Assembly: GCA_019448385.1 (NCBI GenBank)
Contig: JAGTXO010000100.1
Coordinates: 1 to 40,602, forward strand
Length of the DNA: 40,602 bases
Source: Diacronema lutheri
Lineage: Eukaryota > Haptophyta > Pavlovophyceae > Pavlovales > Pavlovaceae
Direction: 5' to 3'
Below, one piece after another: positions 4,877-31,978 of this stretch; within the stretch, counting starts at the first letter, position 1; every line of letters begins with the position of its first letter. Below the pieces are notes generated by a model that saw only the letters and a list, made by a program, of their open reading frames with translations, was not told where the DNA came from and ran no database searches. The translations under genes were made by a program, and so were the position numbers.

Positions 4877-7800
4877 TCAGCAGACGTTCCATTGCCCACT
4901 GTGTGCAGCCATGGCGGCGGCGGTGGCCTCTCGAGCGCCCGCCTGCGCCGCTTGTTGCTTACGCGCGCGGCCGGCCGCATCGCTGCCGGCGCAGACGTTG
5001 GCCAGCGCGCAGCACGCCAGCTTCCGCACGCCCGTGTGCGCGGCGTGCGCGCGCATCGCGGCGACCACGGCCTCGAGCGCGCCCACCTCCGCCGCCCGCT
5101 GCGCGCGCGCGCGGCCGGGCGCATCGTTGCCAGAGCAGACGTTGGCCAGCGCCCAACACGCCCATTCCTGCACGCCCGAGTGCATGGCGTGCGCGCGCAT
5201 CGCGGCGACCACGGCCTCGAGCGCGCCCGCCTCTGCCGCCACCTGCGCGCGCGCAAGCCCGGCCGCATCGGTGCCGGCGCAGACGTTAGCCAGCGCGAGG
5301 CACGCCGACACCTGCACGCCCGAGTGCGCGGCGTGCGCGCGCATCGCGGCGACCACGGCCTCGAGCGCGCCCGCCTCCACCGCCAGCTGCTTGCGCGCGA
5401 GCCCGGCCGCATCGTCGCCGAAGCAGACGGTGTCCAACGTGCGGCACGCCCGCTCCTGCACGCCTGAGTGCGCGGCGTGCGCGCGCATCGCGGCGACCAC
5501 GGCCTCGAGCGCGCCCGCCTCCGCCGCCCACTGCTTGCGCGCGAGCCCGGCCACATCGTCGCCGAAGCAGACGGTGTCAAACGTGCGGCACGCCCGCTCC
5601 TGCACGCCTGAGTGCGCGGCGTGCGCGCGCATCGCGGCGACCACGGCCTCGAGCGCGCCTGCCTCCGCCCCCCGCCGCTTGCGCGCGAGCCCGACCGCGT
5701 CGTCGCCAAAACAGACGCTGTCCAACGTGCGGCACGCCCGCTCCTGCACGCCTGAGTGCGCGGCGTGCGCGCGCATCGCGGCAACCACGGCCTCGAGCGC
5801 GCCTGCATCCGCCCCCCGCCGCTTGCGCGCGAGCCCGGCCGCATCGTCGCCGGAGCAGACGCTGTCCAACGTGCGGCACGCCCGCTCCTGCACGCCTGAG
5901 TGCGCGGCGTGCGCGCGCATCGCGGCGACCACGGCCTCGAGCGCGCCCGCCTCCGCCGCCCGCTGCGCGCGCGCGCGGCCGGGCGCATCGTTGCCAGAGC
6001 AGACGTTGGCCAGCGCCCAACACGCCCATTCCTGCACGCCCGAGTGCATGGCGTGCGCGCGCATCGCGGCGACCACGGCCTCGAGCGCGCCCGCCTCTGC
6101 CGCCACCTGCGCGCGCGCAAGCCCGGCCGCATCGGTGCCGGCGCAGACGTTAGCCAGCGCGAAGCACGCCGACACCTGCACGCCCGAGTGCGCGGCGTGC
6201 GCGCGCATCGCGGCGACGACGGCCTCGAGCGCGCCTGCCTCCGCCGCCCGCTGCTTGCGCGCGAGCCCGGCCGCATCGTCGCCGAAGCAGACGGTGTCCA
6301 GCGTGCGGCACGCCTGCTCCTGCACGCCCGAGTGCGCGGCGTGCGCGCGCATCGCAGCGACCACGGCCTCGAGCGCGCCCGCCTCCGCCGCCAGCTGCTT
6401 GCGCGCGAGCCCGGCCGCATCGGTGCCGGCACAGATGTTATCCAGCGCGAGACACGCCGACACCTGCACGCCCGAGTGCGCGGCGTGCGCGCGCATCGCG
6501 GCGACCACGGCCTCGAGCGCGCCCGCCTCCGCCGCCCGCTGCTTGCGCGCGAGCCCGGCCGCATCGGTGCCGGCGCAGACGACTCTCAACGCGCGGCACG
6601 CCCAATCCTGCACGCCCGAGTGCGCGACGTGCGCGCGCATCGCGGCGACAACGGCCTCGAGCGCGCCCGCCTCCGCCGCCACCTGCGCGCGCGCAAGCCC
6701 GGCCGCATCGGTGCCGAAGCAGACGTTGGCCAGCGCGCCGCACGCCCAATCCTGCACGCCCGAGTTCGCGGCGTGCGCGCGCATCGCGGCGACCACGGCC
6801 TCGAGCGCACCCGCCTCCGCCGCCACCTGCTTGCGCGCGAGCCCGGCCGCATCGAAGCCGGCGCAGATGTTTCTCAACGCGCGGCACGCCCAATCCTGCA
6901 CGCCCGAGTGTGCGGCGTGCGCGCGCATCGCGGCGACGACGGCCTCGAGCGCGCCCGCCTCCGCCGCCAGCCGCTTGCGCGCGTGCCCAGCTGCATCGTC
7001 GCCGAAGCAGACGGTGTCCAACGTGTGGCACGCCCGCTCCTGCACGCCCGAGTTCGCGGCGTGCGCGCGCATCGCGGCGACCACGGCCTCGAGCGCGCCC
7101 GCCTCCGCCGCCCACTGCTTGCGCGCGAGCCCGGCCGCATCGTCGCCGGAGCAGACGCTGTCCAACGTGCGGCACGCCCGCTCCTGCACGCCCGAGTGCG
7201 CGGCGTGCGCGCGCATCGCGGCGACCACGGCCTCGAGCGCGCCCGCCTCCGCCGCCCGCTGCTTGCGCGCGAGCCCGGCCGCATCGGTGCCGGCGCAGAC
7301 GTTGTCCAGCGTAAAGCACGCCTGCTCCTGCATACCCGAGTGTGCGGCGTGCGCGCGCATCGCGGCGACTACGGCCTCGAGCGCGCCCGCCTCCGCCGCC
7401 AGCCGCTTGCGCGCGAGCCCATCCGCATTGTCGCCGAAGCAAACGGTAACCAGCGCCCAACAAGCCCAATCCTGCACGCCTGAGTGCGCGGCGTGCGCGC
7501 GCATCGCGGCGACTACGGCCTCGAGCGCGCCCGCCTTCGCCGCCCGCTTCGCGCGCGCAAGCCCGGCCGCATCGGTGCCAGCGCAGATGTTGGCCAGCAT
7601 GGAGCACGCCTGCTCCTGCATACCCGAGTGCGCGGCGTGCGCGCGCATCGCGGCGACCACGGCCTCGAGCGCGCCCGCCTCCGCCGCCAGCTGCGCGCGC
7701 GCAAGTCCGGCCGCATCGGTGCCGAAACAGACGTTTATCAGCGCGAAACACGCCAACACCTGCACGCTCGAGTGCGCGGCGTGGGCGCGCATCGCGGCGA

Positions 7801-10800
7801 CCACGGCCTCGAGCGCGCCCGCCTCCGCCACCCACTGCTTGCGCGCGAGCCCGGCCGCATCGTCGCCGAAGCAGACGGTGTCCAGCGTGCGGCACGCCAG
7901 CTCCTGCACGCCCGAGAGCGCGGCGTGCGCGCGCATCGCGGCGACCACGGCCTCGAGCGCGCCCGCCTCCGCCGCCAGCTGCTTGCGCGCGAGCCCGGCC
8001 GCATCGGAGCCGGCACAGATGTTATCCAGCGCGAGACACGCCGACACCTGCACGCCCGAGTGCGCGGCGTGCGCGCGCATCGCGGCGACCACGGCCTCGA
8101 GCGCGCCCGCCTCCACCGCCAGCTGCTTGCGCGCGAGCCCGGCTGCATCGTCGCCGAAGCAGACGGTGTCCAGCGTGCGGCACGCCTGCTCCTGCACGCC
8201 CGAGTGCGCGGCGTGCGCGCGCATCGCAGCGACCACGGCCTCGAGCGCGCCCGCCTCCGCCGCCAGCTGCTTGCGCGCGAGCCCGGCCGCATCGGTGCCG
8301 GCACAGATGTTATCCAGCGCGAGACACGCCGACACCTGCACGCCCGAGTGCGCGGCGTGCGCGCGCATCGCGGCGACCACGGCCTCGAGCGCGCCCGCCT
8401 CCGCCGCCCGCTGCTTGCGCGCGAGCCCGGCCGCATCGGTGCCGGCGCAGACGACTCTCAACGCGCGGCAAGCCCAATCCTGCACGCCCGAGTGCGCGAC
8501 GTGCGCGCGCATCGCGGCGACAACGGCCTCGAGCGCGCCCGCCTCCGCCGCCACCTGCGCGCGCGCAAGCCCGGCCGCATCGGTGCCGAAGCAGACGTTG
8601 GCCAGCGCGCCGCACGCCCAATCCTGCACGCCCGAGTTCGCGGCGTGCGCGCGCATCGCGGCGACCACGGCCTCGAGCGCACCCGCCTCCGCCGCCACCT
8701 GCTTGCGCGCGAGCCCGGCCGCATCGGTGCCGGCGCAGATGTTTCTCAACGCGCGGCACGCCCAATCCTGCACGCCCGAGTGTGCGGCGTGCGCGCGCAT
8801 CGCGGCGACGACGGCCTCGAGCGCGCCCGCCTCCGCCGCCAGCCGCTTGCGCGCGAGCCCAGCTGCATCGTCGCCGAAGCAGACGCTGTCCAACGTGCGG
8901 CACGCCTGCTCCTGCACGCCCGTGTGCGCGGCGTGCGCGCGCATCGCAGCGACCACGGCCTCGAGCGCGCCCGCCTCCGCCGCCCACTGCGCGCGCGCAA
9001 GCCCGGCCGCATCGGTGCCGGCGCAGATGTTGGCCAGCGTGGAGCACGCCTGCTCCTGCATACCCGAGTGCGCGGCGTGCGCGCGCATCGCAGCGACCAC
9101 GGCCTCGAGCGCGCCCGCCTCCGCCGCCCGCTGCGCGCGCGCGAGCCCGGCCGCATCGGTGCCGGCGCAGACGTTTCTCAACGCGCCGCACGCCTGCTTC
9201 TGCACGCCCGAGTGCGCGACGTGCGCGCGCATCGCGGCGACCACGGCCTCGAGCGCGCCTGCCTCCGCCGCCCGTTGCTTGCGCGCAAGCCCGGCCGCAT
9301 CGGTGCCGGCGCAGACGTAGTCGAGCGTAAAGCACGCCCGCTCCTGCATACCCGAGTGCGCGGCGTGCGCGCGCATCGCGGCGACCACGGCCTCGAGCGC
9401 GCCCGCCTCCGCCGCCAGCTGCTTGCGCGCGAGCCCATCCGCATTGTCGCCGAAGCAGACGGTAACCAGCGCGCAGCAACCCCAATCCTGCACGCCTGAG
9501 TGCGCGGCGTGGGCGCGCATCGCGGCGACTACGGCCTCGAGCGCACCCCCCTTCGCCGCCCGCTGCGCGCGCGCAAGCCCGGCCGCATCGGTGCCGGCGC
9601 AGACGTTTGCCAGCGCGCGGCACGCCTCCTCCTGCACGCCCGAGTGCGCGGCGTGCGCGCGCATCGCGGCGACCACGGCCTCGAGCGCGCCCGCCGCCGC
9701 CGCTCGCTGCGCCCACGCGATCCCGGCCGCATCGGTGCCGGCGCAGATGTTGGCCAGCGTGAGGCACGCACCCTCTTGCATACCCGAGTGCGCGGCGTGC
9801 GCGCGCATCGCGGCGACCACGGCCTCGAGCGCGCCCGCCTTCGCCGCCAGCTGCTTGCGCGCGAGCCCGGCCGCATCGTCGCCGAAGCAGACGGTAAGCA
9901 GCGCCCAGCAAGCCCAATCCTGCACGCCCGAGTGCGCGGCGTGCGCGCGCATCGCGGCGACCACGGCCTCGAGCGCGCCCGCCTCCGCCGCCCGCTGCGC
10001 CCACGCGATCCCGGCCGCATCGGTGCCGAAGCAGACTTTCACCAGCGCGTGGCATGCCCGCTCCTGCACGCCCGAGTGCGCGGCGTGCGCGCGCATCGCG
10101 GCGACCACGGCCTCGAGCGCGCCCGCCTCCGCCGCCAGCTGCGCGCGCGCGAGCCCGGCCGCATCGGTGCCGGCGCAGATGTTTGTCAGCGCGCGGCACG
10201 CCTGCTTCTGCACGCCCGAGTGCGCGGCGTGCGTGCGCATCGCGGCGACCACGGCCTCGAGCGCGCCCGCCTCCGCCGCCCGCTGCCTGCACGCAAGCCC
10301 GGCCGCATCGGTGCCGGCGGAGACGTTGGCCAGCGTGAAGCACGCCTCCTCCTGCACGCCCGAATGCGCGGCGTGCGCGCGCATCGCGGCGACCACGGCC
10401 TCGAGCGCGCCCGCCTCCGCCGCCCGCTGCTTGCGCGCGAGCCCGGCCGCATCGGTGCCGGCGCAGACGTTTCTCAGCGCCCAGCAAGCCCAATCCTGCA
10501 CGCCCGAGTGCGCGGCGTGCGTGCGCATCGCGGCGACCACGGCCTCGAGCGCGCCCGCCTCGGCCGCCCGCTGCTTGCGCGCGAGCCCGGCCGCATCGGT
10601 GCCGGCGCAGACGTTTCTCAGCGTGAAGCACGCCTGCTCCTGCACGCCCGAGTGCGCGGCGTGCGCGCGCATCGCGGCGACCACGGCCTCGAGCGCGCCT
10701 GCGTTGGCAGCCAGCTCGCAGCTCGTATCGTCCCACCTCGCGCGACGGGACACCGCCACAATGGCAGCGGCCGCCTCCTCGGCCCGCTGCGCCATCGCCG

Positions 10801-12559
10801 CGACCCAATCCTCGCCGCCGGCCCCAGCGCCGTCCACCGGCGCGGCGCCCACCCGCACGGCCGCAACGAGCTGCGGCCACGACATCGCATTTAGCTCGTC
10901 GGCGGTGGGCGGCGGCGGCCGCTGCGCGACGGGCGGCGGTGCGTCGCGCACGGCCTGCACGTAGGGCGGTGGCGCGTCACGCGGCGGCGGCGGCGGCTGC
11001 TGCGCGCGCGCGTCCTCTGCGCCACCACCGCCGCCAGCGCTTGCCGCCACCACCGCTGCCGCCGCCGCGTCCGCGGCCTCCGCCGCCTCGACGACGCACT
11101 GGGCGCGCGCGACGAGGGCCAGGTCGACCGGCGGCCGGTCCAACGGCTCGTGCGCCCACAGCTGCGCCATCGCGCCGACGAGCGGGCGCAGCGTCGCCGC
11201 CGGCCGCCGGTCGACGGGCAGCCGAGGCCGCTCGCCCGCGCGCACCGCGTCGAACACGATCGCGTCCGACTTGCCCTCCCACGGCGTGCGCCACGCGAGG
11301 AGCTCGTAAAACACGCAGCCGAGCGCGTAGCAGTCCACCTTGTCGCGCATCGCCATACGGTCGCGCGCGCGGTCGAGCAGCTCGGGCGCCATCCACGGCA
11401 GCGTGCTGGCCGCGCCACCGCCCGTCGAGCGCGTCGCGCGCGTCGTGCACCGCGCGCGCGCGAGGCCAAAATCGCAGAGCTTCCACACGCCGCCCGTGCA
11501 GCGGAGCACGTTGGCCGACTTGAGGTCGCCGTGGTGCACCTGCCGCGCGTGCAGGTGCTCGACGCCCGCCACGACGTCGCGCGCGCAGCGCGCGAGCTCG
11601 ACGGCGGGCGGCGGGTCGTGCGAGCGCGCGCGCATCGCGTCGAGCAGGCTGCCGTCGGGCGCGAGCTCGAGGACGAGGCAGAGGCGCGAAGGTTCGAGCG
11701 TCATCGCGCCAAAGACCTGCAGCACGTTTGGCCCGCTCAACGCGCTCTGGATCGCCACTTCGCGCCGCACCTCGTCCGCCGCTGCCTCCGAGCCGCCGTA
11801 AAAGTACTTGAGCGCCACGCGCGTCACGCCCTGGTACGTGCCCGCGTACAGCTCGCCGGCGGCGCCCGCGCGGTTGAGCGGCTCGGCGCGCGCGACGTGC
11901 GAAGGGGTGATCTCGTGCGCGAACACCTTCTTGCGCGCGGCCGCTGCTCGCGTTTCGTCGCTCCGCGCGGCGTGCAACGCGCCGACCATCTCGCCGAGCA
12001 GCGCGTCGAGCGCGGCCGCGTCGATCTGCTCGTCCGCTCGCGCATCACTGGCCGGCGCAACGTTGGCGCCGCGCGCGCTTGACACGCCCGCGTGCAGATC
12101 ATCGACGAGCTCTTGCGCCGCCTCCGCCTCCGCCTCGAGATCAGCCACGTCGTCCTCGGCGAGCCGCTCGCGCAGCCGCAGAGCGCGCGTTGCGTCGATC
12201 TGCAGGCAAAGCTGCAGCCGCTGCTGGTGCACGGCGAGGCGCTCGGCCAGATCGCGCATGCGCGCGCGGTCATGCAGCACGTACTTCATGCGCTGCACGC
12301 GCGAGCGCGACGAGTACTCGGCGACGAAGCCGGCCGTCTCGCGCGCGAGCTCGGAGAGCGCGCCGAGCGGCTGCGCGTGCGCAGCGGCGTCGATGTCGTC
12401 GTTGGCGAGCTGCTTGAGCCGGCTCTCGAGCCAGCGCCATTCGTCGCGAAGCGTCGCGACCATCGTGTGGTTCCTCGTCCCCGTACTGTACGCCTGCCAC
12501 GCCGCGCGGCAGGCCTGGATCGCGCCGGTGAGCACAGGTGACACACCTACCTTGGCCAT
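4877..12559 (-). CDS. Giant TKL-like protein kinase with 40 ARM-like repeats and an N-terminal helical bundle
   Basis: One uninterrupted frame of about 2,560 residues. The N-terminal 190 residues look like an all-helical bundle, with spacing of Leu and charged residues reminiscent of the MLKL N-terminal/HeLo type (weak inference). A kinase domain follows (about 235-485): ATP Lys in VALKYF near 250, catalytic loop HGDLKSANVL near 343 (HGD instead of HRD, catalytic Asp kept), DFGLAR near 365 and APEL near 389. A Pro/Ala-rich linker leads to 40 repeats of 48 residues (about 620-2523), each with GALEAVVAAMRAHAAHS and VQ..AC..L.NVC, typical of armadillo superhelices. The start at 12559 (MAKVGVSP) is preferred; an in-frame ATG at 12616 would add 19 residues. 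Likely a cytosolic signalling scaffold kinase; substrate unknown. Its 3' end converges on the DnaJ gene. Confidence 0.85.
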   Translation of the reverse strand: MAKVGVSPVLTGAIQACRAAWQAYSTGTRNHTMVATLRDEWRWLESRLKQLANDDIDAAAHAQPLGALSELARETAGFVAEYSSRSRVQRMKYVLHDRARMRDLAERLAVHQQRLQLCLQIDATRALRLRERLAEDDVADLEAEAEAAQELVDDLHAGVSSARGANVAPASDARADEQIDAAALDALLGEMVGALHAARSDETRAAAARKKVFAHEITPSHVARAEPLNRAGAAGELYAGTYQGVTRVALKYFYGGSEAAADEVRREVAIQSALSGPNVLQVFGAMTLEPSRLCLVLELAPDGSLLDAMRARSHDPPPAVELARCARDVVAGVEHLHARQVHHGDLKSANVLRCTGGVWKLCDFGLARARCTTRATRSTGGGAASTLPWMAPELLDRARDRMAMRDKVDCYALGCVFYELLAWRTPWEGKSDAIVFDAVRAGERPRLPVDRRPAATLRPLVGAMAQLWAHEPLDRPPVDLALVARAQCVVEAAEAADAAAAAVVAASAGGGGGAEDARAQQPPPPPRDAPPPYVQAVRDAPPPVAQRPPPPTADELNAMSWPQLVAAVRVGAAPVDGAGAGGEDWVAAMAQRAEEAAAAIVAVSRRARWDDTSCELAANAGALEAVVAAMRAHAAHSGVQEQACFTLRNVCAGTDAAGLARKQRAAEAGALEAVVAAMRTHAAHSGVQDWACWALRNVCAGTDAAGLARKQRAAEAGALEAVVAAMRAHAAHSGVQEEACFTLANVSAGTDAAGLACRQRAAEAGALEAVVAAMRTHAAHSGVQKQACRALTNICAGTDAAGLARAQLAAEAGALEAVVAAMRAHAAHSGVQERACHALVKVCFGTDAAGIAWAQRAAEAGALEAVVAAMRAHAAHSGVQDWACWALLTVCFGDDAAGLARKQLAAKAGALEAVVAAMRAHAAHSGMQEGACLTLANICAGTDAAGIAWAQRAAAAGALEAVVAAMRAHAAHSGVQEEACRALANVCAGTDAAGLARAQRAAKGGALEAVVAAMRAHAAHSGVQDWGCCALVTVCFGDNADGLARKQLAAEAGALEAVVAAMRAHAAHSGMQERACFTLDYVCAGTDAAGLARKQRAAEAGALEAVVAAMRAHVAHSGVQKQACGALRNVCAGTDAAGLARAQRAAEAGALEAVVAAMRAHAAHSGMQEQACSTLANICAGTDAAGLARAQWAAEAGALEAVVAAMRAHAAHTGVQEQACRTLDSVCFGDDAAGLARKRLAAEAGALEAVVAAMRAHAAHSGVQDWACRALRNICAGTDAAGLARKQVAAEAGALEAVVAAMRAHAANSGVQDWACGALANVCFGTDAAGLARAQVAAEAGALEAVVAAMRAHVAHSGVQDWACRALRVVCAGTDAAGLARKQRAAEAGALEAVVAAMRAHAAHSGVQVSACLALDNICAGTDAAGLARKQLAAEAGALEAVVAAMRAHAAHSGVQEQACRTLDTVCFGDDAAGLARKQLAVEAGALEAVVAAMRAHAAHSGVQVSACLALDNICAGSDAAGLARKQLAAEAGALEAVVAAMRAHAALSGVQELACRTLDTVCFGDDAAGLARKQWVAEAGALEAVVAAMRAHAAHSSVQVLACFALINVCFGTDAAGLARAQLAAEAGALEAVVAAMRAHAAHSGMQEQACSMLANICAGTDAAGLARAKRAAKAGALEAVVAAMRAHAAHSGVQDWACWALVTVCFGDNADGLARKRLAAEAGALEAVVAAMRAHAAHSGMQEQACFTLDNVCAGTDAAGLARKQRAAEAGALEAVVAAMRAHAAHSGVQERACRTLDSVCSGDDAAGLARKQWAAEAGALEAVVAAMRAHAANSGVQERACHTLDTVCFGDDAAGHARKRLAAEAGALEAVVAAMRAHAAHSGVQDWACRALRNICAGFDAAGLARKQVAAEAGALEAVVAAMRAHAANSGVQDWACGALANVCFGTDAAGLARAQVAAEAGALEAVVAAMRAHVAHSGVQDWACRALRVVCAGTDAAGLARKQRAAEAGALEAVVAAMRAHAAHSGVQVSACLALDNICAGTDAAGLARKQLAAEAGALEAVVAAMRAHAAHSGVQEQACRTLDTVCFGDDAAGLARKQRAAEAGALEAVVAAMRAHAAHSGVQVSACFALANVCAGTDAAGLARAQVAAEAGALEAVVAAMRAHAMHSGVQEWACWALANVCSGNDAPGRARAQRAAEAGALEAVVAAMRAHAAHSGVQERACRTLDSVCSGDDAAGLARKRRGADAGALEAVVAAMRAHAAHSGVQERACRTLDSVCFGDDAVGLARKRRGAEAGALEAVVAAMRAHAAHSGVQERACRTFDTVCFGDDVAGLARKQWAAEAGALEAVVAAMRAHAAHSGVQERACRTLDTVCFGDDAAGLARKQLAVEAGALEAVVAAMRAHAAHSGVQVSACLALANVCAGTDAAGLARAQVAAEAGALEAVVAAMRAHAMHSGVQEWACWALANVCSGNDAPGRARAQRAAEVGALEAVVAAMRAHAAHTGVRKLACCALANVCAGSDAAGRARKQQAAQAGAREATAAAMAAHSGQWNVC
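5000..10720 (-). repeat. 144-bp coding tandem array, 40 copies
   Basis: The ARM-like part of the kinase gene is a tandem array with an exact 144-bp period. The landmark ATCGCGGCGA-type core occurs at 5055 and at 10671, 5,616 bp apart, which is exactly 39 periods, so no net indel has accumulated. Units vary by substitutions in the 3' half of each repeat while the GALEAVVAAMRAH half is nearly invariant. Confidence 0.93.
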
Positions 12560-12802
12560 CGGGCCAGAGCCCTTTCTTCGTACTACCCCCATATGGGGAT
12601 ACCCATACCATACCATACTTAGTCCGCTTGGAAGTTTTCAGGAGCTCCAAGTGCGGTCCGGAACTTTCCCCCCACCGGAAAGTCATGTGGGACTCCGAGT
12701 CCTGTTGGCTGCATCTGTGGGCATCACGTGCAATGTCGGGTACCGCGAGGTGTGAGCGGCTCGCCGATATCAGGCCTAGCGGTGCGATGAGGCGGAGGCA
12801 GG
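12560..12802. promoter_or_regulatory. Upstream region of kinase gene, with CCCCATATGGGG palindrome
   Basis: This 243-bp gap lies between the kinase ATG and the stop of the DOT1-like gene, both on the minus strand. A perfect 12-bp palindrome CCCCATATGGGG sits at 12587-12598, 28 bp upstream of the kinase ATG, followed by CCATA repeats and an imperfect hairpin with TTGGA/TCCAA arms near 12625-12655. A promoter or 5' UTR role is inferred from position. Confidence 0.35.
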
Positions 12803-15800
12803 TCATGCGGGCGGCGCATGCTCGAGGTTGATGTACACGTACGCCTGCGCGGCGGAGGCAGTCCGGACCGGACCGGGCGTGCGCGCCGCGAATGTGCCCG
12901 TGGGCGTAAGCCCGCAAGACATTGCGCGCGAAAGAGCGCGCGACCGTCACTGGGCGAGAGGCGGTCCCTGGACGGTTGGGCGCCAATAGGCGCGCGGCTC
13001 TGAGGCGCGCGGGCGCAGTCGGCGGCTGAGTTGCACGGCCAGCATGGCGGCCACAATGGCGGCCAGCATGGCGACAGCACGCGACGCGTGGGCGTCTGCG
13101 CGCCATGCGGCGAGCCGTGCGCGCGCACGGTGCAGGTCTCCCGGCCCGTTGTGCGCATCCGAAGCTTTGCGACCGGCTCGACCTTGCGCAGCCCGGCCGC
13201 CCACCACTCCTGCGGGTGGGTAACCGGGGGGGAGGAGGGGGCGGAGGGTGAGAATCCGGGTGGCGAAGGGCGGCGTGGTGCCAGGGGCGCATGCGGGGTG
13301 GCTAGGGCCACGGCGCGTGCGGTGCGGTGGCGGCGGTGGCGCGAGGCGCGACGGAGCGGTGGCGCTTATGCGCGGAGAGCGACCCATGAGATGGCGCCCA
13401 TGCGTGTGCGTGCAGGCAAGGAGCAATGGCGCCCATGCGTGTGCATGCAGGCACCAAGGAGCAATGGCGCCCATGCGTGTGCATGCAGGCAATGAGCAAT
13501 GGCGCCCATGCGTGTGCGTGCAGGCAAGGAGCAATGGCGCCCATGCGTGTGCGTGCAGGCAAGGAGCAATGGCGCCCATGCGTGTGCGTGCAGGCAAGGA
13601 GCAATGGCGCCCATGCGTGTGCGTGCAGGCAAGGAGCAATGGCGCCCATGCGTGTGCGTGCAGGCAAGGAGCAATGGCGCCCATGCGTGTGCATGCAGGC
13701 AAGGAGCAATGGCGCCCATGCGTGTGCGTGCAGGCAAGGAGCAATGGCGCCCATGCGTGTGCGTGCAGGCAAGGAGCAATGGCGCCCATGCGTGTGCATG
13801 CAGGCAAGGAGCAATGGCGCCCATGCGTGTGCGTGCAGGCAAGGAGCAATGGCGCCCATGCGTGTGCGTGCAGGCAAGGAGCAATGGCGCCCATGCGTGT
13901 GCATGCAGGCAAGGAGCAATGGCGCCCATGCGTGTGCGTGCAGGCAAGGAGCAATGGCGCCCATGCGTGTGCGTGCAGGCAAGGAGCAATGGCGCCCATG
14001 CGTGTGCATGCAGGCAAGGAGCAATGGCGCCCATGCGGCCCACCCGTCCGCCGGCCGTCCGCGAAAGGCGCTCGACGCGGTCCGTCGCCCCGATGCGCGC
14101 CTGCAGGGGCCGGTCCGGTTGTTCCGGTGCGCGGCTTCGGCTGCACGCACGCCGCAGAGCGCGAAAACCCCTCGCACCCGCCTTGCTGGCGCGGCGCGCG
14201 ACGCCACATGTGCCAAATGGGCTGGCGCGCATGTGCCAAATGGGCTGGCGCGCATGTGCCAAATGGGCTGACGCGCATGTGCCAAATGGGCTGGCGCGCA
14301 TGTGCCAAATGGGCTGGCGCGCATGTGCCAAATGGGCTGGCGCGCATGTGCCAAATGGGCTGGCGCGCATGTGCCAAATGGGCTGGCGCGCATGTGCCAA
14401 ATGGGCTGGCGCGCATGTGCCAAATGGGCTGGCGCGCATGTGCCAAATGGGCTGGCGCGCATGTGCCAAATGGGCTGGCGCGCATGTGCCAAATGGGCTG
14501 GCGCGCATGTGCCAAATGGGCTGGCGCGCATGTGCCAAATGGGCTGGCGCGCATGTGCCAAATGGGCTGGCGCGCATGTGCCAAATGGACTGGCGCGCAT
14601 GTCCCAAATGGGCTGGCGCGCACGTGCCAAATGGGCTGACGCGCATGTGCCAAATGGGCTGGCGCGCATGTGCCAAATGGGCTGGCGCGCATGTGCCAAA
14701 TGGGCTGGCGCGCATGTGCCAAATGGGCTGCCGCGCATGTGCCAAATGGTTTGCCGCGCACGTGCCAAATGGGCTGACGCGTACCTTTGCGGTGCGAAAG
14801 CTGACGAGCACGTAAAAGGCGCATCGGCTCAATCGTGCTGCGAGCGCCTCGAGCGTCGACGGCGCAAAGACCTGCGCGCAGGAGAACGGGAGAGTGCGCG
14901 CGCGCGAGAGAGCCTCACACGTTGGATCCGCCTTGAATAACTCGGCCAACGCACACGGCACACGGGCGCGCGCGCGCTGTGCCGCACCCGGTCGAAGGTG
15001 TACACGTGCGTTGCGAGCAGCAGCTCGCAGCACGACGCGGCGTCGCCGTACCGGTATGCGACGGCATGCAACGCGTGCAGCGCGCCCTGCCTCCATGCGC
15101 TCAAGGGTTGCTCGCATGGAGGCAGCGCGTGTGGCGGCAGCCACGCGAGCCGCGCTGGCGGCGATGGCAGCGGGCGTGCAGACACATCCGACGCTGTGCA
15201 CAAGGCAAAGGGCAGCCATGGTGGCCGCGTTGGCGGCGATGGCAGCGGGCGTGCAGACACATCCGACGCTGTGCACAAGGCAGAGGCGGCCAAGCGCGCG
15301 GCACGGATTGGCAGCGTGTTCGCAGCCGGCTTCGCGTCGAAAGCGATGCTCGCCGTGTGAATGTGCGCCGAATTTTGAATTTCCCCTCTCCCATTCTCCA
15401 GTATAGCGCCTTCAAGAGTCGAACGCAAAGCCGGCTGTAACGGCGCGTGTGCACGTTGCGCAAACTCGCACTCAGGCGGGCGCAGCTCGGGCGGGCGCAG
15501 CTCGTCGAGCGCGCGCTCGGCCGTGTCGTATCGCTGGGCGACGCACTCGATGCCGTAGACTCTGCGTGCGCGGTGTGCGATCGCCACGTGCGCGCAGACC
15601 TGCGCGGTGGGCGGCACGGCACGGCGGGTCGGCGGGTGACCGTCGCGGGATGCTGGCTGGTGGGCGCGCCGGTCATCTCACGATCGCGCGTGGAGCTGCG
15701 AAGCTGGATGGTTGCGACGCTGAACCACGAGCAGCGGTCGCGCAATTCAGCTTTGCAGTTTTGCAGCTGGCCACGCACAGAGCTGCAAAGCTGGATCACG

Positions 15801-27029: not shown

Positions 27030-27440
27030 TGTTTCTCACCTTCTCACCCGATAAGAGCGCGCAGTAGCGGTGTTCGGTCGGGCACCGCAGGTCGAGCCGG
27101 TCACAATGCTTCAAATGCGCACAGCGGGCCGGTAGACCTGCACCGTGCGCGCGCACGGCTCGCCGCATGGCGCGCAGACGCCCACGCGTCACGTGCTGCC
27201 GCCATGCTCGCCGTGCACCTCGGCCGCCGACTGCGCCCGCGCGCCTCAGAGCCGCGCACCTATTGGCGAGTGACGGTCGCGCGCTCTTTAATGTGACGCG
27301 GGCTCGCGCCCACGGGCACAGCCGCGGCGCGCACGCCCGCGGAAAACACGCGTTGGCCGCGACCGTCCAGTTGGCCCACCACTGGCGCGCAGGCGTACGT
27401 GCACATCAACCTCGAGAGCACGCGCCGCCCGCACGGCCTG
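27030..27440 (+). pseudogene. Broken copy of the last two exons of the DOT1-like gene
   Basis: The sequence on the plus strand matches the minus strand of 12803-13240. An exon-5-like segment (about 27065-27144) follows a matching GCGCAG acceptor, then a shortened copy of the last intron (27145-27396) and an exon-6-like segment starting GCGTACGTGCACATCAACCTC. The first codon (GAG in the intact gene) is TAG here, a second GAG is TAG in GGCCGGTAGACC, one base is missing, and the terminal TGA is lost. It is therefore a non-functional DNA-level duplicate that keeps the intron, lying 68 bp or more beyond the stop of the FFNVP gene. The start of homology upstream of 27065 is uncertain. Confidence 0.75.
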
Positions 27441-30400
27441 CGAGCGGCCGCGACGACTCTGCGCACGCGCGCGCGATCGCGCAGCCGTGGCCGCCCGAGC
27501 AGCTCGACGCGCCGGCGTTGGCTGCGCGCTCGCCGCTCGCCTTGACAGCTTGCTTGCAAGGCTTGCAAGGCTGGCCGCTTGGCGCGCCGCCGCTGCAGCG
27601 CGCAGAATCTGCTGCGCCGCAGCAGCGCGAAGGCGAGCCCGGCGCCTGGCCCGGCGGCGGCGTGTACGGAGGCGCGCTTGGCGCGAGCGGGCGCGACGGC
27701 GGGCGCGCTGGCGGCGCGTGCGTCGGCGCGCTCGGCGGCCGCGAGCCGGGCGCCGCGCTCGACGCTCTGCTCGGCGCGACCGACTCGGCACAGTCTGTGC
27801 CCAGCTCGGCCCCTCTTCTTGTCGCGAGCCCTGCCCCACAGTCTGCGCGCGCGAGCAGCCTTGGCGGTCGCTTTGCAGATGCGAGTTGCAGCGGCTCGCT
27901 GCGAGGTGTGGAAGCGCCGCCGCTCCCGACTCTCGGCTTGCATCGTGCCTCTCGCTCACGGAGCACATGCGTCGGGGCGGTAGGTGTCAGCCCCTCGGGC
28001 GCAGCAGGTGCGATGCGCTCTGAGCACGCTGCTGCCAGCGCTGCTGCGCCTGCAGCTGCCGCGCGCCCGCTGCTTTCGCATGAGGGCGAGCGGCGACTGG
28101 GCGACGGTGTAGTCCGCGCCCTCATTCGCTCGCTCGGCGGCAGCATGCCACGCATCGAGCTGAGCGACTCTGCCGCCCGAGGGATGCTTGTCCTCACGCG
28201 CGGCGGCGTGGCGCTTTGCGGCGCTGAGGTGATGCAGCTCCTCGAGGAGCGCCTACCTTGTGCGCCCTTCTATGAGCCGCCCGGCTCTGCGCTCATGGCG
28301 AGGCATTGCAAGCCGCCTAGTGGGCAGTGGGACGCTGCATCGATGCTCGCAGCGCGCGGTGCGTTTGTGATGCGTCCAAAGGTTGCGGTGGTCGCGCCAC
28401 ACCTCCTTATTCGACGGGAGCTATCCGCCGACCCGCGCTTTCGCGTCAACGACGACCCTACTCGCATCATCTGCCCGTGCCCCAAGTGCAAGAGCAACAA
28501 CCTCATCTGCCGCGCCGGATGGGCGCCAATCCGCTATGCCTACGACCTCGCTGGCGTTATCTGCGTCATGAGCGAGACCATCTTCTGCAAGGGCTGCAGC
28601 AAGACCACGGCGATAAGCACGCTCATCGCTGACCCGGAGTACTTGCCCGTGTCTGTGCGCACCAAGTATGCAGACCTTGTGCTCATGAAAGTCGGAGCCA
28701 TGACGTGGTCACTTGCGCAGCACATCTTCATCTCGACTATCCCGATGGCCAAGCTCGCCGAGCAGATTGCCGCTCCGCACCTTCTGAACCAATCGCTCAT
28801 GCACGATGCCTACGCTCGCTTCGTCGAGGAGCAGGGGCATTCAAGTCGCGCGCGTGCGCAGCAGACTCTCCACTCGTACTGGGGCGATGCGCAGCGCGAG
28901 CAAGAGACGGAGCCAGCTGCTCGCGTCGCTGATTGGCCGCCATTTGCCTTCCTTAACGTGTTCAACTCGCTGCTCGTGCCCTCTGCTGACAACATTCGCA
29001 CGATCTTTTGCCACATTGGCGCTATCCTCGAGCCCTTTCTGCTCGAGCGCTTGCTCCAGTCTTCGCCCGGGAGAATCATCCGCTCGGATGGCACGCGCTC
29101 CCTTGCAATCAGGTCTACTGGTGATGGCAAGGTGCTGGTCATCATCCAGGGAGCACGCGGGGAGACGCTCTGGTGGGGAGTCACCGCGTCGGAGAGCTTT
29201 GACAAGCATCTCCTCCCCGCGCTGCTCCGGCTGCGCGCGCGGTTTGAGCGCATGGGGACTTTGTCAGGCGTCGTCGCGTGGTACACAGACACCTGCTGCG
29301 GCAAGTGCAGGCCTGAGATGCTCTCCAAGCATGTGCTCGTCAACCTCTTCCCGACCATCTCCCGCCGCCCGTATCTCGACCACTTCCACGCGCTCAAGCG
29401 TATCGGCGACACGTGCAAGGCCTCCAGCCAGGCCTTTGCGACCGAGCTCAAGCGCAATTTGTCCAGTGCACTCCTTCAGCCGGTCGAGGAGGACATCCGC
29501 GCGGTTGCGTCCTATCTGCAGGCGCAAAACAAGTCGCTCACTGCACAAGCGGCGCTCGCGCGCGTGCGCGAAGACCTCGCTCGGTACAAGGCAGATGGCG
29601 CGATTCGATCGACGACACCTGCACCCGAGATTGCGCTCGCGCGACTGACTGAGGTCAAGGAGAAGAGGGAAGCGTTTGCGCGGTCGAGCCCGACACAGTC
29701 GCCGATGCGCCCAGCGAGCAGGACTGGCGAGCGTGTTGCGGGCACCGGCGAGGTGATCGACTTGGTCGGAGTCCACGTGGCTAACGGCTGCTTGAACGAC
29801 CCGCTTCCTCTCGACGAGATGTACCTGCAGGCCGGGCGCGTGTACCATAACAGCACGCTGCGCAAATTTGTGGCCATGCGAGGGGATTCGCTTGTCGAGG
29901 ATCTGAACTCGTTCCTCAATCCGCTCGTGGAAGGTGTCTCGACGGTGGACAGGAACGTGCTGCAGTACCGCATCTTTTTCCGGCTCGTGGGGCATGCGCG
30001 CGCTGCGGAGATGCGCGACGCATTCGGCCGATCTACGAACGCCGACGGTGAGCCATTCTGGCTTACACCTGCTCTGCTCTCGGAGCGCAGCCTCGGCGAG
30101 ACATTTGCCATGCTGCGCAAGTCCTTCTTCGACAATCCGACCGGCGGCATCGGCTCGAAGCACGCTCTCTACGAGCCGATGGGCTGGGCCTACGAGCCTG
30201 ACATTGAGAAGGCGCAAGAGGAGTACGCGCAGCTCGTGAGCGCGCTGGCAGCAGAACGCGCCTCACGATCCGTTCCGTCGCCCCCGCGGCAGCCGCCGCC
30301 TTTGTCGCCGAGTTTGGTTCAGACGCGCGTGCCGCGGTCGCTGTCGCCCGAGCAGAGGGCAGCCTTAGCGCTCTCGCTTACAGGGCGCGCGAGCTCGCCG

Positions 30401-31795
30401 CAAACGCAGCTCGAGCACTGGCCATCGCCGCCGCCGACGCTGCCACTGCCGCCGCCGCCGCGGCCGCAGCAGCAGCAGCTGCCCCGCCTCGCATGGGCAG
30501 ACGGCTCGTCCGCAGCTGGCGACGCGCTCGCAGCATTCACCTCGCAGCCGACTCTTTCGCCATCGAGGCTGCAACTGCCAAGGCAACCATCGCCACCATG
30601 TCCGCCACCGCCATCGCCGCCACCGCCGCTGCAGTCCGCACAGCTGCGGCGACAAACGCAGCAGCCGCAGCAGCCGCGGATGCAACAGTCGGCGAGGACT
30701 CTGCCTGCTTCACCTGCGATGCAGCGCTCACCGCAGCCCGCACCTTCGCAGCGGCCGTTGCAGCACCAGCACTGCCAGCAGGAGCAGCCGCGCCAGCTCG
30801 TGTCGGGCGACGCCTCCGCAGCAGCCCACGCCGCGCCCTCCCAGCCGCCGCCGCCGTCGCCGCCTCGTCCGCGATCCACCGCACAGCGGACCGACCTCAA
30901 GCAGAGTTTGTCGAAGAAGGCAACTCCGACGCACTGCTTTCAGACCAGGGGCATGGCCTTGCAGCACCTCTCGCCATCCGAGCGTGCGCTCGCAGGGAGG
31001 TGCCTCGCGATGGCCGTGGCACAGGGCGGAAAGACGTCGGGCGACAATGTCTTCTCGGCGGCACAAGCTGTGTACAAGAGCCTGGTGCAAAACAGCTTCA
31101 CGCCCGGCGTGCAAACGTCGGCCGATGAGCGCGTGCTCCGGACGCCGACACTCAAGGCCTTCGAGGACATCTCGCGCAGAGCTGGGCAGCGACACGCGGC
31201 GGCGACCGTGGATGATTGCATGCGGCGGGCATCGTCTGGTGAGGCAGCCGCCCTGTCGGCCGAAAGTACGGCGCGCGCCTGCGCGCTCGCGCGACCTGCG
31301 AGCGTGCTCCCTCTCCCGTCTCCCGTCCCTCTGCCGCCGCATGCCACAACGCGACCGTTTCTTATTTGCCGCCCTGCGCGTTCACATGCACGCTCAGACG
31401 AAGAAGAGGCATTGCGCCAAGCAGCCACTGCGTACGAGGCGGGGCTCGTCCAGCTCAACGCCGCACGCGCGCTCGCGCAACCCGTGCGAGCCTCACCTGC
31501 CGGTGCGCTGTCGGCTGCGCCTCCTTTCGCGCGGCTGCGCTGCTGCCGCCGCATGCACAGCGTTGCAGCGTCTCACTCTCCGACCCTCCGCTCCCTCCCC
31601 ATATTCCCCGCGCGAATTCAAATTACCCTGTTAGGCGCACACTTCGCCTGCCCGCCTTCGTGGCCCAACCGTGGTCCTCGGCAGCTCCTTTTGACGCGGC
31701 AAACGCGCACGTCGTTACGAGCCCCATGCAAAGCGCGCACGTCGTTAGTATATCTACCCCACGTCATATGGGGGGCGTATTCGAACATAGGTTAG
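27167..31795 (+). CDS. DDE (RNase H-fold) transposase-like protein with zinc ribbon and Pro/Gln-rich tail
   Basis: A single open frame of up to 1,542 codons. The first ATG (27167) lies in the DOT1-derived fragment in an unrelated frame, so a later start such as 28013 is quite possible. A zinc-ribbon-like pair, CPCPKCK near 435 and CKGC near 474, precedes a transposase-like core: SDGTRSL near 639 (first Asp), TDTCCGKC near 706 (second Asp), LDHFHALKRI near 737 and RGDSLVEDLN near 905 (candidate Glu). This order resembles the eukaryotic transposase-derived family with a DUF6729-type zinc domain, named from memory. Residues about 1035-1245 are Pro/Gln/Ser-rich. The frame is intact, so the element may be recent or domesticated. 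No clear terminal inverted repeats were found. The last 140 codons, without conservation cues, may be intronic or untranslated. Confidence 0.65.
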   Translation: MARRRPRVTCCRHARRAPRPPTAPARLRAAHLLASDGRALFNVTRARAHGHSRGAHARGKHALAATVQLAHHWRAGVRAHQPREHAPPARPASGRDDSAHARAIAQPWPPEQLDAPALAARSPLALTACLQGLQGWPLGAPPLQRAESAAPQQREGEPGAWPGGGVYGGALGASGRDGGRAGGACVGALGGREPGAALDALLGATDSAQSVPSSAPLLVASPAPQSARASSLGGRFADASCSGSLRGVEAPPLPTLGLHRASRSRSTCVGAVGVSPSGAAGAMRSEHAAASAAAPAAAARPLLSHEGERRLGDGVVRALIRSLGGSMPRIELSDSAARGMLVLTRGGVALCGAEVMQLLEERLPCAPFYEPPGSALMARHCKPPSGQWDAASMLAARGAFVMRPKVAVVAPHLLIRRELSADPRFRVNDDPTRIICPCPKCKSNNLICRAGWAPIRYAYDLAGVICVMSETIFCKGCSKTTAISTLIADPEYLPVSVRTKYADLVLMKVGAMTWSLAQHIFISTIPMAKLAEQIAAPHLLNQSLMHDAYARFVEEQGHSSRARAQQTLHSYWGDAQREQETEPAARVADWPPFAFLNVFNSLLVPSADNIRTIFCHIGAILEPFLLERLLQSSPGRIIRSDGTRSLAIRSTGDGKVLVIIQGARGETLWWGVTASESFDKHLLPALLRLRARFERMGTLSGVVAWYTDTCCGKCRPEMLSKHVLVNLFPTISRRPYLDHFHALKRIGDTCKASSQAFATELKRNLSSALLQPVEEDIRAVASYLQAQNKSLTAQAALARVREDLARYKADGAIRSTTPAPEIALARLTEVKEKREAFARSSPTQSPMRPASRTGERVAGTGEVIDLVGVHVANGCLNDPLPLDEMYLQAGRVYHNSTLRKFVAMRGDSLVEDLNSFLNPLVEGVSTVDRNVLQYRIFFRLVGHARAAEMRDAFGRSTNADGEPFWLTPALLSERSLGETFAMLRKSFFDNPTGGIGSKHALYEPMGWAYEPDIEKAQEEYAQLVSALAAERASRSVPSPPRQPPPLSPSLVQTRVPRSLSPEQRAALALSLTGRASSPQTQLEHWPSPPPTLPLPPPPRPQQQQLPRLAWADGSSAAGDALAAFTSQPTLSPSRLQLPRQPSPPCPPPPSPPPPLQSAQLRRQTQQPQQPRMQQSARTLPASPAMQRSPQPAPSQRPLQHQHCQQEQPRQLVSGDASAAAHAAPSQPPPPSPPRPRSTAQRTDLKQSLSKKATPTHCFQTRGMALQHLSPSERALAGRCLAMAVAQGGKTSGDNVFSAAQAVYKSLVQNSFTPGVQTSADERVLRTPTLKAFEDISRRAGQRHAAATVDDCMRRASSGEAAALSAESTARACALARPASVLPLPSPVPLPPHATTRPFLICRPARSHARSDEEEALRQAATAYEAGLVQLNAARALAQPVRASPAGALSAAPPFARLRCCRRMHSVAASHSPTLRSLPIFPARIQITLLGAHFACPPSWPNRGPRQLLLTRQTRTSLRAPCKARTSLVYLPHVIWGAYSNIG

Positions 31796-31808
31796 AGTTG
31801 TGGGGGCT

Positions 31809-31845
<37 letters not shown>

Positions 31846-31978
31846 GGAGGAGGGGGGAATTCTTGTGTTGCCTGTTCGCCATTTTTTTGCAGGCTCGGCT
31901 TACATTTGCAGCCCGTGCCTCTGAGAGTTACTGCCCATGGCTGAGTCTGAGTCTGCCTTCCAGTCACATCGCAGACAC
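31796..31978. other. Intergenic region with G run between transposase ORF and TOM7
   Basis: It contains a G homopolymer of about 34 bases (31811-31844) broken only at its end. Just upstream, inside the 3' end of the transposase ORF, GCGCACGTCGTTA occurs twice (about 31707-31748). No gene is recognised. Confidence 0.6.

Follow-up and report, generated by a model that had tools for sequence, protein, structure and literature searches.

Two copies of one block of sequence lie in opposite orientation on a single contig of Diacronema lutheri, one at 12.8-13.2 kb and the other at 27.1-27.4 kb, and the second copy abuts a large transposase-like ORF. The question raised by this locus is what the block is and how it came to stand beside a mobile element. 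A first-pass annotation had taken it for the last two exons of a DOT1-like gene with the intron between them, brought next to a DDE transposase by gene-fragment capture or by insertion into an older paralogue. The window analysed here is the whole contig JAGTXO010000100.1 (40,602 bp, GC 71.8%), referred to below as C66, and the genome searches covered the C66 assembly of 43.49 Mb in 103 contigs, in which contig C9 measures 3,042,068 bp. The publication on D. lutheri NIVA-4/92 gives an assembly of 43.50 Mb in 103 contigs, with a longest contig of 3.042 Mb and a GC content of 73.25% (PMC8379373). The best candidates were scored in the genome searches, and the counts from these searches are lower bounds.

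Comparison of the window with itself confirmed the inverted copy: 27060-27441 on the forward strand aligned to 12798-13214 on the reverse strand with 72.46% identity over 443 columns (E 3.3e-78), in a filtered comparison that omitted pairs falling within two large tandem arrays as well as those separated by less than 1.5 kb. On realignment, in which identities were counted over ungapped columns, 318 of 355 columns were identical (89.6%). Seven gap runs were observed, of 25 and 2 positions in the 12.8 kb copy and of 1, 24, 29, 7 and 1 positions in the 27 kb copy, and the 1-bp deletion described in the first-pass annotation is present. The pair had a local alignment score of 318, whereas none of 1000 first-order Markov controls scored above 45 and none of 274 real window segments above 34 (both tandem arrays and both block copies left out); the likeness of the two copies is far above chance. 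The features of the locus are collected in Table 1.

Table 1. Features of the 40,602-bp window bearing on the block and the adjoining element.
Feature	Positions	Strand	Remarks
Kinase-armadillo ORF, 2586 codons stop to stop	4877..12637	-	PF07714 E 2e-33, PF00514 E 4e-52, PF23744 E 1e-57
Paralogous block, in place	12798..13214	-	~0.23 kb upstream of 12567, where kinase-gene homology with sister loci begins
Orphan block, upstream flank of the kinase-ARM family	27060..27441	+	matches 12798-13214 (-), C69, C47, C31
Open frame, orphan block into transposase-like ORF, 1575 codons stop to stop	27068..31795	+	
Junction of block and transposon interior	27441..27442	.	both sides share 2 bp (GC), or 4 of 5 bp allowing one mismatch
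Transposon copy, truncated	27442..31809	+	lacks ~1.7 kb at left (compared with C75), ~34 bp including terminal repeat at right, ~0.46 kb inside
Weak kinase-like stretch in element	27444..27540	+	resembles end of kinase domain, window 11105-11207, sense direction
Internal deletion site in transposon	31706..31725	.	18 bp here, 479 bp between same anchors in C95
G-run in place of element's right terminal repeat	31809..31857	.	

A genome search with 27030-27440 returned at least five places, which were the query itself, the 12.8 kb copy and matches on C69, C47 and C31. The 27 kb block matched C69:1555596-1555746 at 93%, C47:9519-9576 at 98% and C31:1174-1217 at 91%. Over the 151 bp common with C69, identity of the 27 kb copy to C69 is 93.4% and to the 12.8 kb copy 84.7%, the latter figure resting on 124 ungapped and 37 gap columns; over this length the 27 kb copy is closer to the C69 copy than to the one on its own contig. 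The inner 0.2 kb of the block (27060-27268) was found only in the two C66 copies among the matches listed, a distribution to be expected after local inverted duplication.

The proposed DOT1 identity was rejected, since the DOT1 profile PF08123, which gave at least nine matches in the genome, had none on C66 even at E ≤ 10. A genome search with PF08123 at E ≤ 0.001 likewise gave nothing on C66, and comparison of 24 window ORFs with Pfam at E ≤ 0.1 revealed no DOT1. A coding signature was looked for between the 27 kb copy and C69 and was not found: of ten substitutions, two to four were synonymous in any of the six frames. Among the seven gap runs of the inverted pair, one (24) is a multiple of three and the other six would break a frame. 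With no frame showing an excess of synonymous changes and with gaps that would disrupt one, the argument that a kept intron rules out retrocopying is unfounded; no exon-intron structure is supported in either block copy, and nothing favours retrocopying. The two in-frame stops and the lost stop codon attributed to the copy hinge on the choice of frame, in a window holding 159 open frames of at least 150 aa from stop to stop, and they were not confirmed. No Rfam match was detected in the window or in the C69 stretch. Judged from these comparisons, the block is probably non-coding.

The surroundings of the other block copies point to a different gene. The ORF at 4877-12637 encodes a kinase (aa 257-503) followed by an array of ~40 tandem 144-bp armadillo repeats (87% matching), and its N-terminus gave a weak MLKL-like match below the cut-off (E 0.014). 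Its kinase part was matched at 86% identity or more by at least eight loci (on C66, C69 (twice), C47, C11, C63, C86 and C31), and a ninth locus, on C86, was matched at 68%. Members of this kinase-armadillo (ARM) family are 86-93% alike; on C31, C63 and C86 only part of the kinase was matched. At C69:1569 kb a kinase gene has kept its two sides, that of the start and that of the ARM array, which meet at a 4-bp overlap where the body has been lost. Loss of the gene body is not rare in this family.

On C69, C47 and C31 the block lies directly upstream of DNA homologous to the window from 12567 downwards, that is, to the 5' side of the kinase-ARM ORF, and with C66 it precedes kinase homology at four of the eight loci matched at 86% or more. 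On C69 it is preceded by the end of an ARM array and followed by the next kinase. No block upstream of the kinase was found at C11, C63, C86 or the second of the C69 loci; at each of them the four best matches spanned at most 40 bp with E 1.5e-4 or worse (search at E ≤ 0.05). The 12.8 kb copy has no alignment to the sister loci between 12567 and 12771. From its position at these loci, the block is assigned as an upstream flank of the kinase-ARM gene family.

The sequence on the other side of the junction belongs to a small family of nearly identical elements. From 27437 on, five other places (C95, C33, C75, C94 and C37) match the window at 99% over 4.1-4.3 kb, and the window element differs from these sister copies by 0.16-0.39% substitutions. 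The copies on C75 and C37 measure ~6.6 kb and ~6.3 kb, respectively. Those on C75, C37 and C33 carry a short repeat that is inverted at both ends and adjoins G-runs, while C95 and C94 show the right terminal repeat alone in the stretches examined, the C94 element running into the contig end. C95, C75 and C94 have the element and its right flank in common at 99.7-99.9% over more than 8 kb and look like duplicates of one insertion. In the window, no terminal repeat of the element was found by exact search of the whole length or, with one mismatch allowed, in 27.0-32.5 kb.

With inverted repeats at both ends of its complete copies, near-identical copies and a large open frame, the element resembles DNA transposons with terminal inverted repeats (TIRs). 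It differs from them in that both ends of the complete copies lie within G-runs, where a target-site duplication is not readable, and in that no Pfam or PDB profile matched the catalytic domain of its protein over the cut-off. In the protein, a cysteine-rich stretch was seen along with two aspartate motifs read as DDE-like. Its best matches below the cut-off were DUF6729 (E 0.025), Lar_restr_allev (best E 0.0071 among 10 members) and a PDB aldolase (E 0.032); PDB was searched with one protein and then with a 10-row profile. A single-sequence structure model had a mean pLDDT of 39.3 and was too poor for use, and a literature search for DUF6729 together with transposase returned no paper. Relatives of the protein (28400-30400, forward strand) occur at ~13 or more further places in the genome. 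The abutment of the block to a transposase-like ORF stands; the DDE label is one of motifs. Possibly the element belongs to an as yet unclassified family of DNA transposons with complete copies located in G-runs.

Several further observations were made on this family. An internal unit of the element (27437-27773) is present once in C37, as one full and one partial copy in C75, and as two full copies and one partial copy in C33, where the units are spaced by ~363 bp; from this varying number, the coding region of the element varies by tandem copies. The C95 element breaks off internally at ~C95:41694, ~1 kb from the left end as judged from C75, and joins other sequence, which makes a second internal junction in the family. 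The 9-mer CGTTAGTAT (window 31743-31751) occurs 22 times in 104 kb of examined loci, where ~0.1 would be expected from base composition, and part of these occurrences are repeat copies. Separately, a 66-bp repeat on C69 (C69:1555433-1555498) recurs at 30 or more places at 97% identity or higher over at least 62 bp, and the C69 stretch gave no Rfam match; the core of the repeat is also present near the element in the examined stretches of C95, C75, C37 and C94, and the C47 stretch has no exact core match.

Block and element meet at a point inside the element. Homology to the element starts at 27437 and homology to the block ends at 27441, with one mismatch in the overlap, and by comparison with C75 the junction falls ~1.7 kb into the element. 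Past this point C69, C47 and C31 go on into mutually alike sequence, and the window does not. The block was found beside none of the five other element copies, in the stretches examined and among the genome-search matches listed, and the element at none of the three block loci on other contigs; block and element meet once, which is no association. The first-pass annotation had itself held that many copies unrelated to transposase loci would count against its reading, and the search bears this out in part, one of the five block places among the matches listed being beside the element. Beyond the far side of the element, neither self-comparison nor genome search found homology to the block's gene, and the right flank (31.86-34.2 kb) is represented elsewhere by short pieces only, of at most 263 bp at 69%.

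The reading that we favour, and consider reasonably probable, is that the body of a second kinase-ARM copy was lost here and that the flank of this copy became fused, by a deletion, to internal sequence of a young transposon. The kinase-ARM family would have multiplied and broken, leaving several paralogues truncated, and the block at 27060-27441 would be the upstream flank of a lost member that stood head to head with the survivor at 4.9-12.6 kb. A TIR transposon would have inserted in the neighbourhood, with the G-run at 31.8 kb as its probable landing site. Subsequently, the body of the lost gene and the leftmost 1.7 kb of the transposon would both have been removed by a deletion or some other illegitimate rearrangement, which connected the orphan flank to internal transposon sequence across a 2-bp microhomology, presumably through end-joining repair. 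Two more deletions would account for the missing internal piece and right terminal repeat, and the element should no longer be able to move by itself.

The internal junction and the absence of both element ends agree neither with plain insertion nor with capture of the block; they fit a deletion or illegitimate rearrangement after a nearby landing. Since the element and its sisters differ by less than half a per cent, as against 6.6% for the block and its relative on C69, the meeting of the two appears recent and the block old. The loss of the gene body at C69:1569 kb is the same kind of event at a sister locus and speaks for this history. Several points count against it. The lost gene is deduced from 382 bp of flank, which was possibly duplicated alone; the kinase-like stretch of Table 1 starts right at the junction and in the sense direction, which a deletion leaves to chance; the short matches of the right flank mean that no arrangement predating the deletion was found; and alignment between the 12.8 kb copy and its sisters is lacking just upstream of 12567.

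The first of these points leads to the strongest alternative, in which nothing but the 382-bp flank was copied, through local inverted duplication or as filler in break repair, and a piece of the transposon became attached to it during the same repair event or a subsequent one, with no second kinase gene ever standing at 27 kb. The lack of convincing kinase or ARM sequence right of 27.44 kb would agree with such a course, as would a transposon copy without a true end on either side. However, elsewhere the block stands before kinase genes (four loci), and the sister locus on C69 demonstrates that a whole gene body can be lost; we hold copying of the flank alone to be unlikely, though a possibility to be reckoned with.

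Direct insertion of the transposon into an older paralogue, with subsequent loss of an end, would explain why element and block abut within 5 bp, and complete element copies that could have inserted do exist. An older paralogue is indeed involved, but it is one of the upstream flank of a kinase-ARM gene and not of DOT1, and a simple insertion finds no support in view of the internal position of the junction (1.7 kb inside the element compared with C75), the missing terminal repeat and host homology that does not resume beyond the element. The remaining element is moreover at least 99.6% identical to the others by substitution, and we regard this course of events as improbable. An assembly misjoin would be conceivable in a window rich in homopolymer runs and tandem arrays, on a contig whose 40.6 kb fall short of two read lengths at the N50 of 23.5 kb given for the published assembly, but it is very unlikely given the coverage of ~x315 and the removal of 33 short sequences reported in the publication (PMC8379373) and given that five substitutions, along with deletions, are private to the element copy, which is thus not merely another copy misplaced.

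The kinase-like stretch adjoining the junction bears on a further alternative. It aligned to the end of the kinase domain with 74% identity (E 3.5e-8, self-comparison) and, apart from a 28-bp match, is the only kinase-like match right of 27.44 kb; both lie in sequence common to other element copies, the stretch being present in C95, C75, C33 and C94 and absent from C37. Its score of 61 exceeded the maximum of 48 in 1000 Markov controls and of 57 among 1326 window segments (everything before 13.3 kb and 26.9-27.6 kb left out), and it was the highest among 436 segments of the element. One of 1224 segments from other loci scored 65, and the protein match of the stretch (45) was below that of other segments of the same ORF (up to 52). 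The C75 linker preceding the stretch is not block-like, 415 of 1000 controls being as good, and a genome search with 27444-27540 returned element copies only among the matches listed. We take the stretch for a GC-rich coincidence or a very old relic; as the one result that would fit capture, it is suggestive and not convincing.

Pack-type elements are transposons with captured gene fragments. An acquisition of this type, of either the block or the kinase-like stretch, would be in keeping with a duplicated host segment that abuts a transposase-like ORF, with the open frame that runs through both, and with a sense-direction resemblance to the kinase-domain end carried by four other copies. The open frame comes cheaply in a window of 72% GC with so many long frames. 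Of the five substitutions private to the window element, four change the protein and one is silent in the frame of the other copies, and a 16-bp gap near the 3' end shifts its frame; changes so few have nothing to say on constraint. The capture of the block that had been proposed finds no support, as the block lies outside an element both of whose ends are missing and, in the stretches examined, beside none of the five other copies. As for the stretch, its 74% contrasts with the 86-93% among family members, and both its nucleotide score and its protein match were surpassed elsewhere, so that we give acquisition of host sequence by the transposon little credence. Still more doubtful is the notion that the junction marks the very site of acquisition, with the ~100 bp being a worn piece of the lost kinase gene that was taken up by the element standing here and has since come to lie in four other copies, the window keeping the donor flank and an immobile copy with a fused frame.

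Returning to the loss of a second gene copy by deletion, the locus can be set beside known systems. It resembles the relics of birth-and-death gene families, in that the family is multi-copy with long, truncated and body-deleted members and one member here would be reduced to its upstream flank, and it is unlike them in that the surviving part is flank and not exon and ends at the interior of a transposon. With Pack-type elements it shares a host-derived segment beside a transposase-like gene; unlike in those, the segment lies outside the element and beside one of six copies only, and for the block no host fragment between terminal repeats was found. The scar is real but looks ordinary, of the kind that duplication of a gene and a subsequent deletion would leave. 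It would gain greater weight only if the kinase-like stretch were captured or the fused frame expressed. The analysis removes a misleading lead, leaving no DOT1 gene, no argument from an intron and no capture of the block, and puts in its place a readable series of events, in which a kinase-ARM family expands and fragments and the broken copy of a young transposon marks the scar of a deletion.
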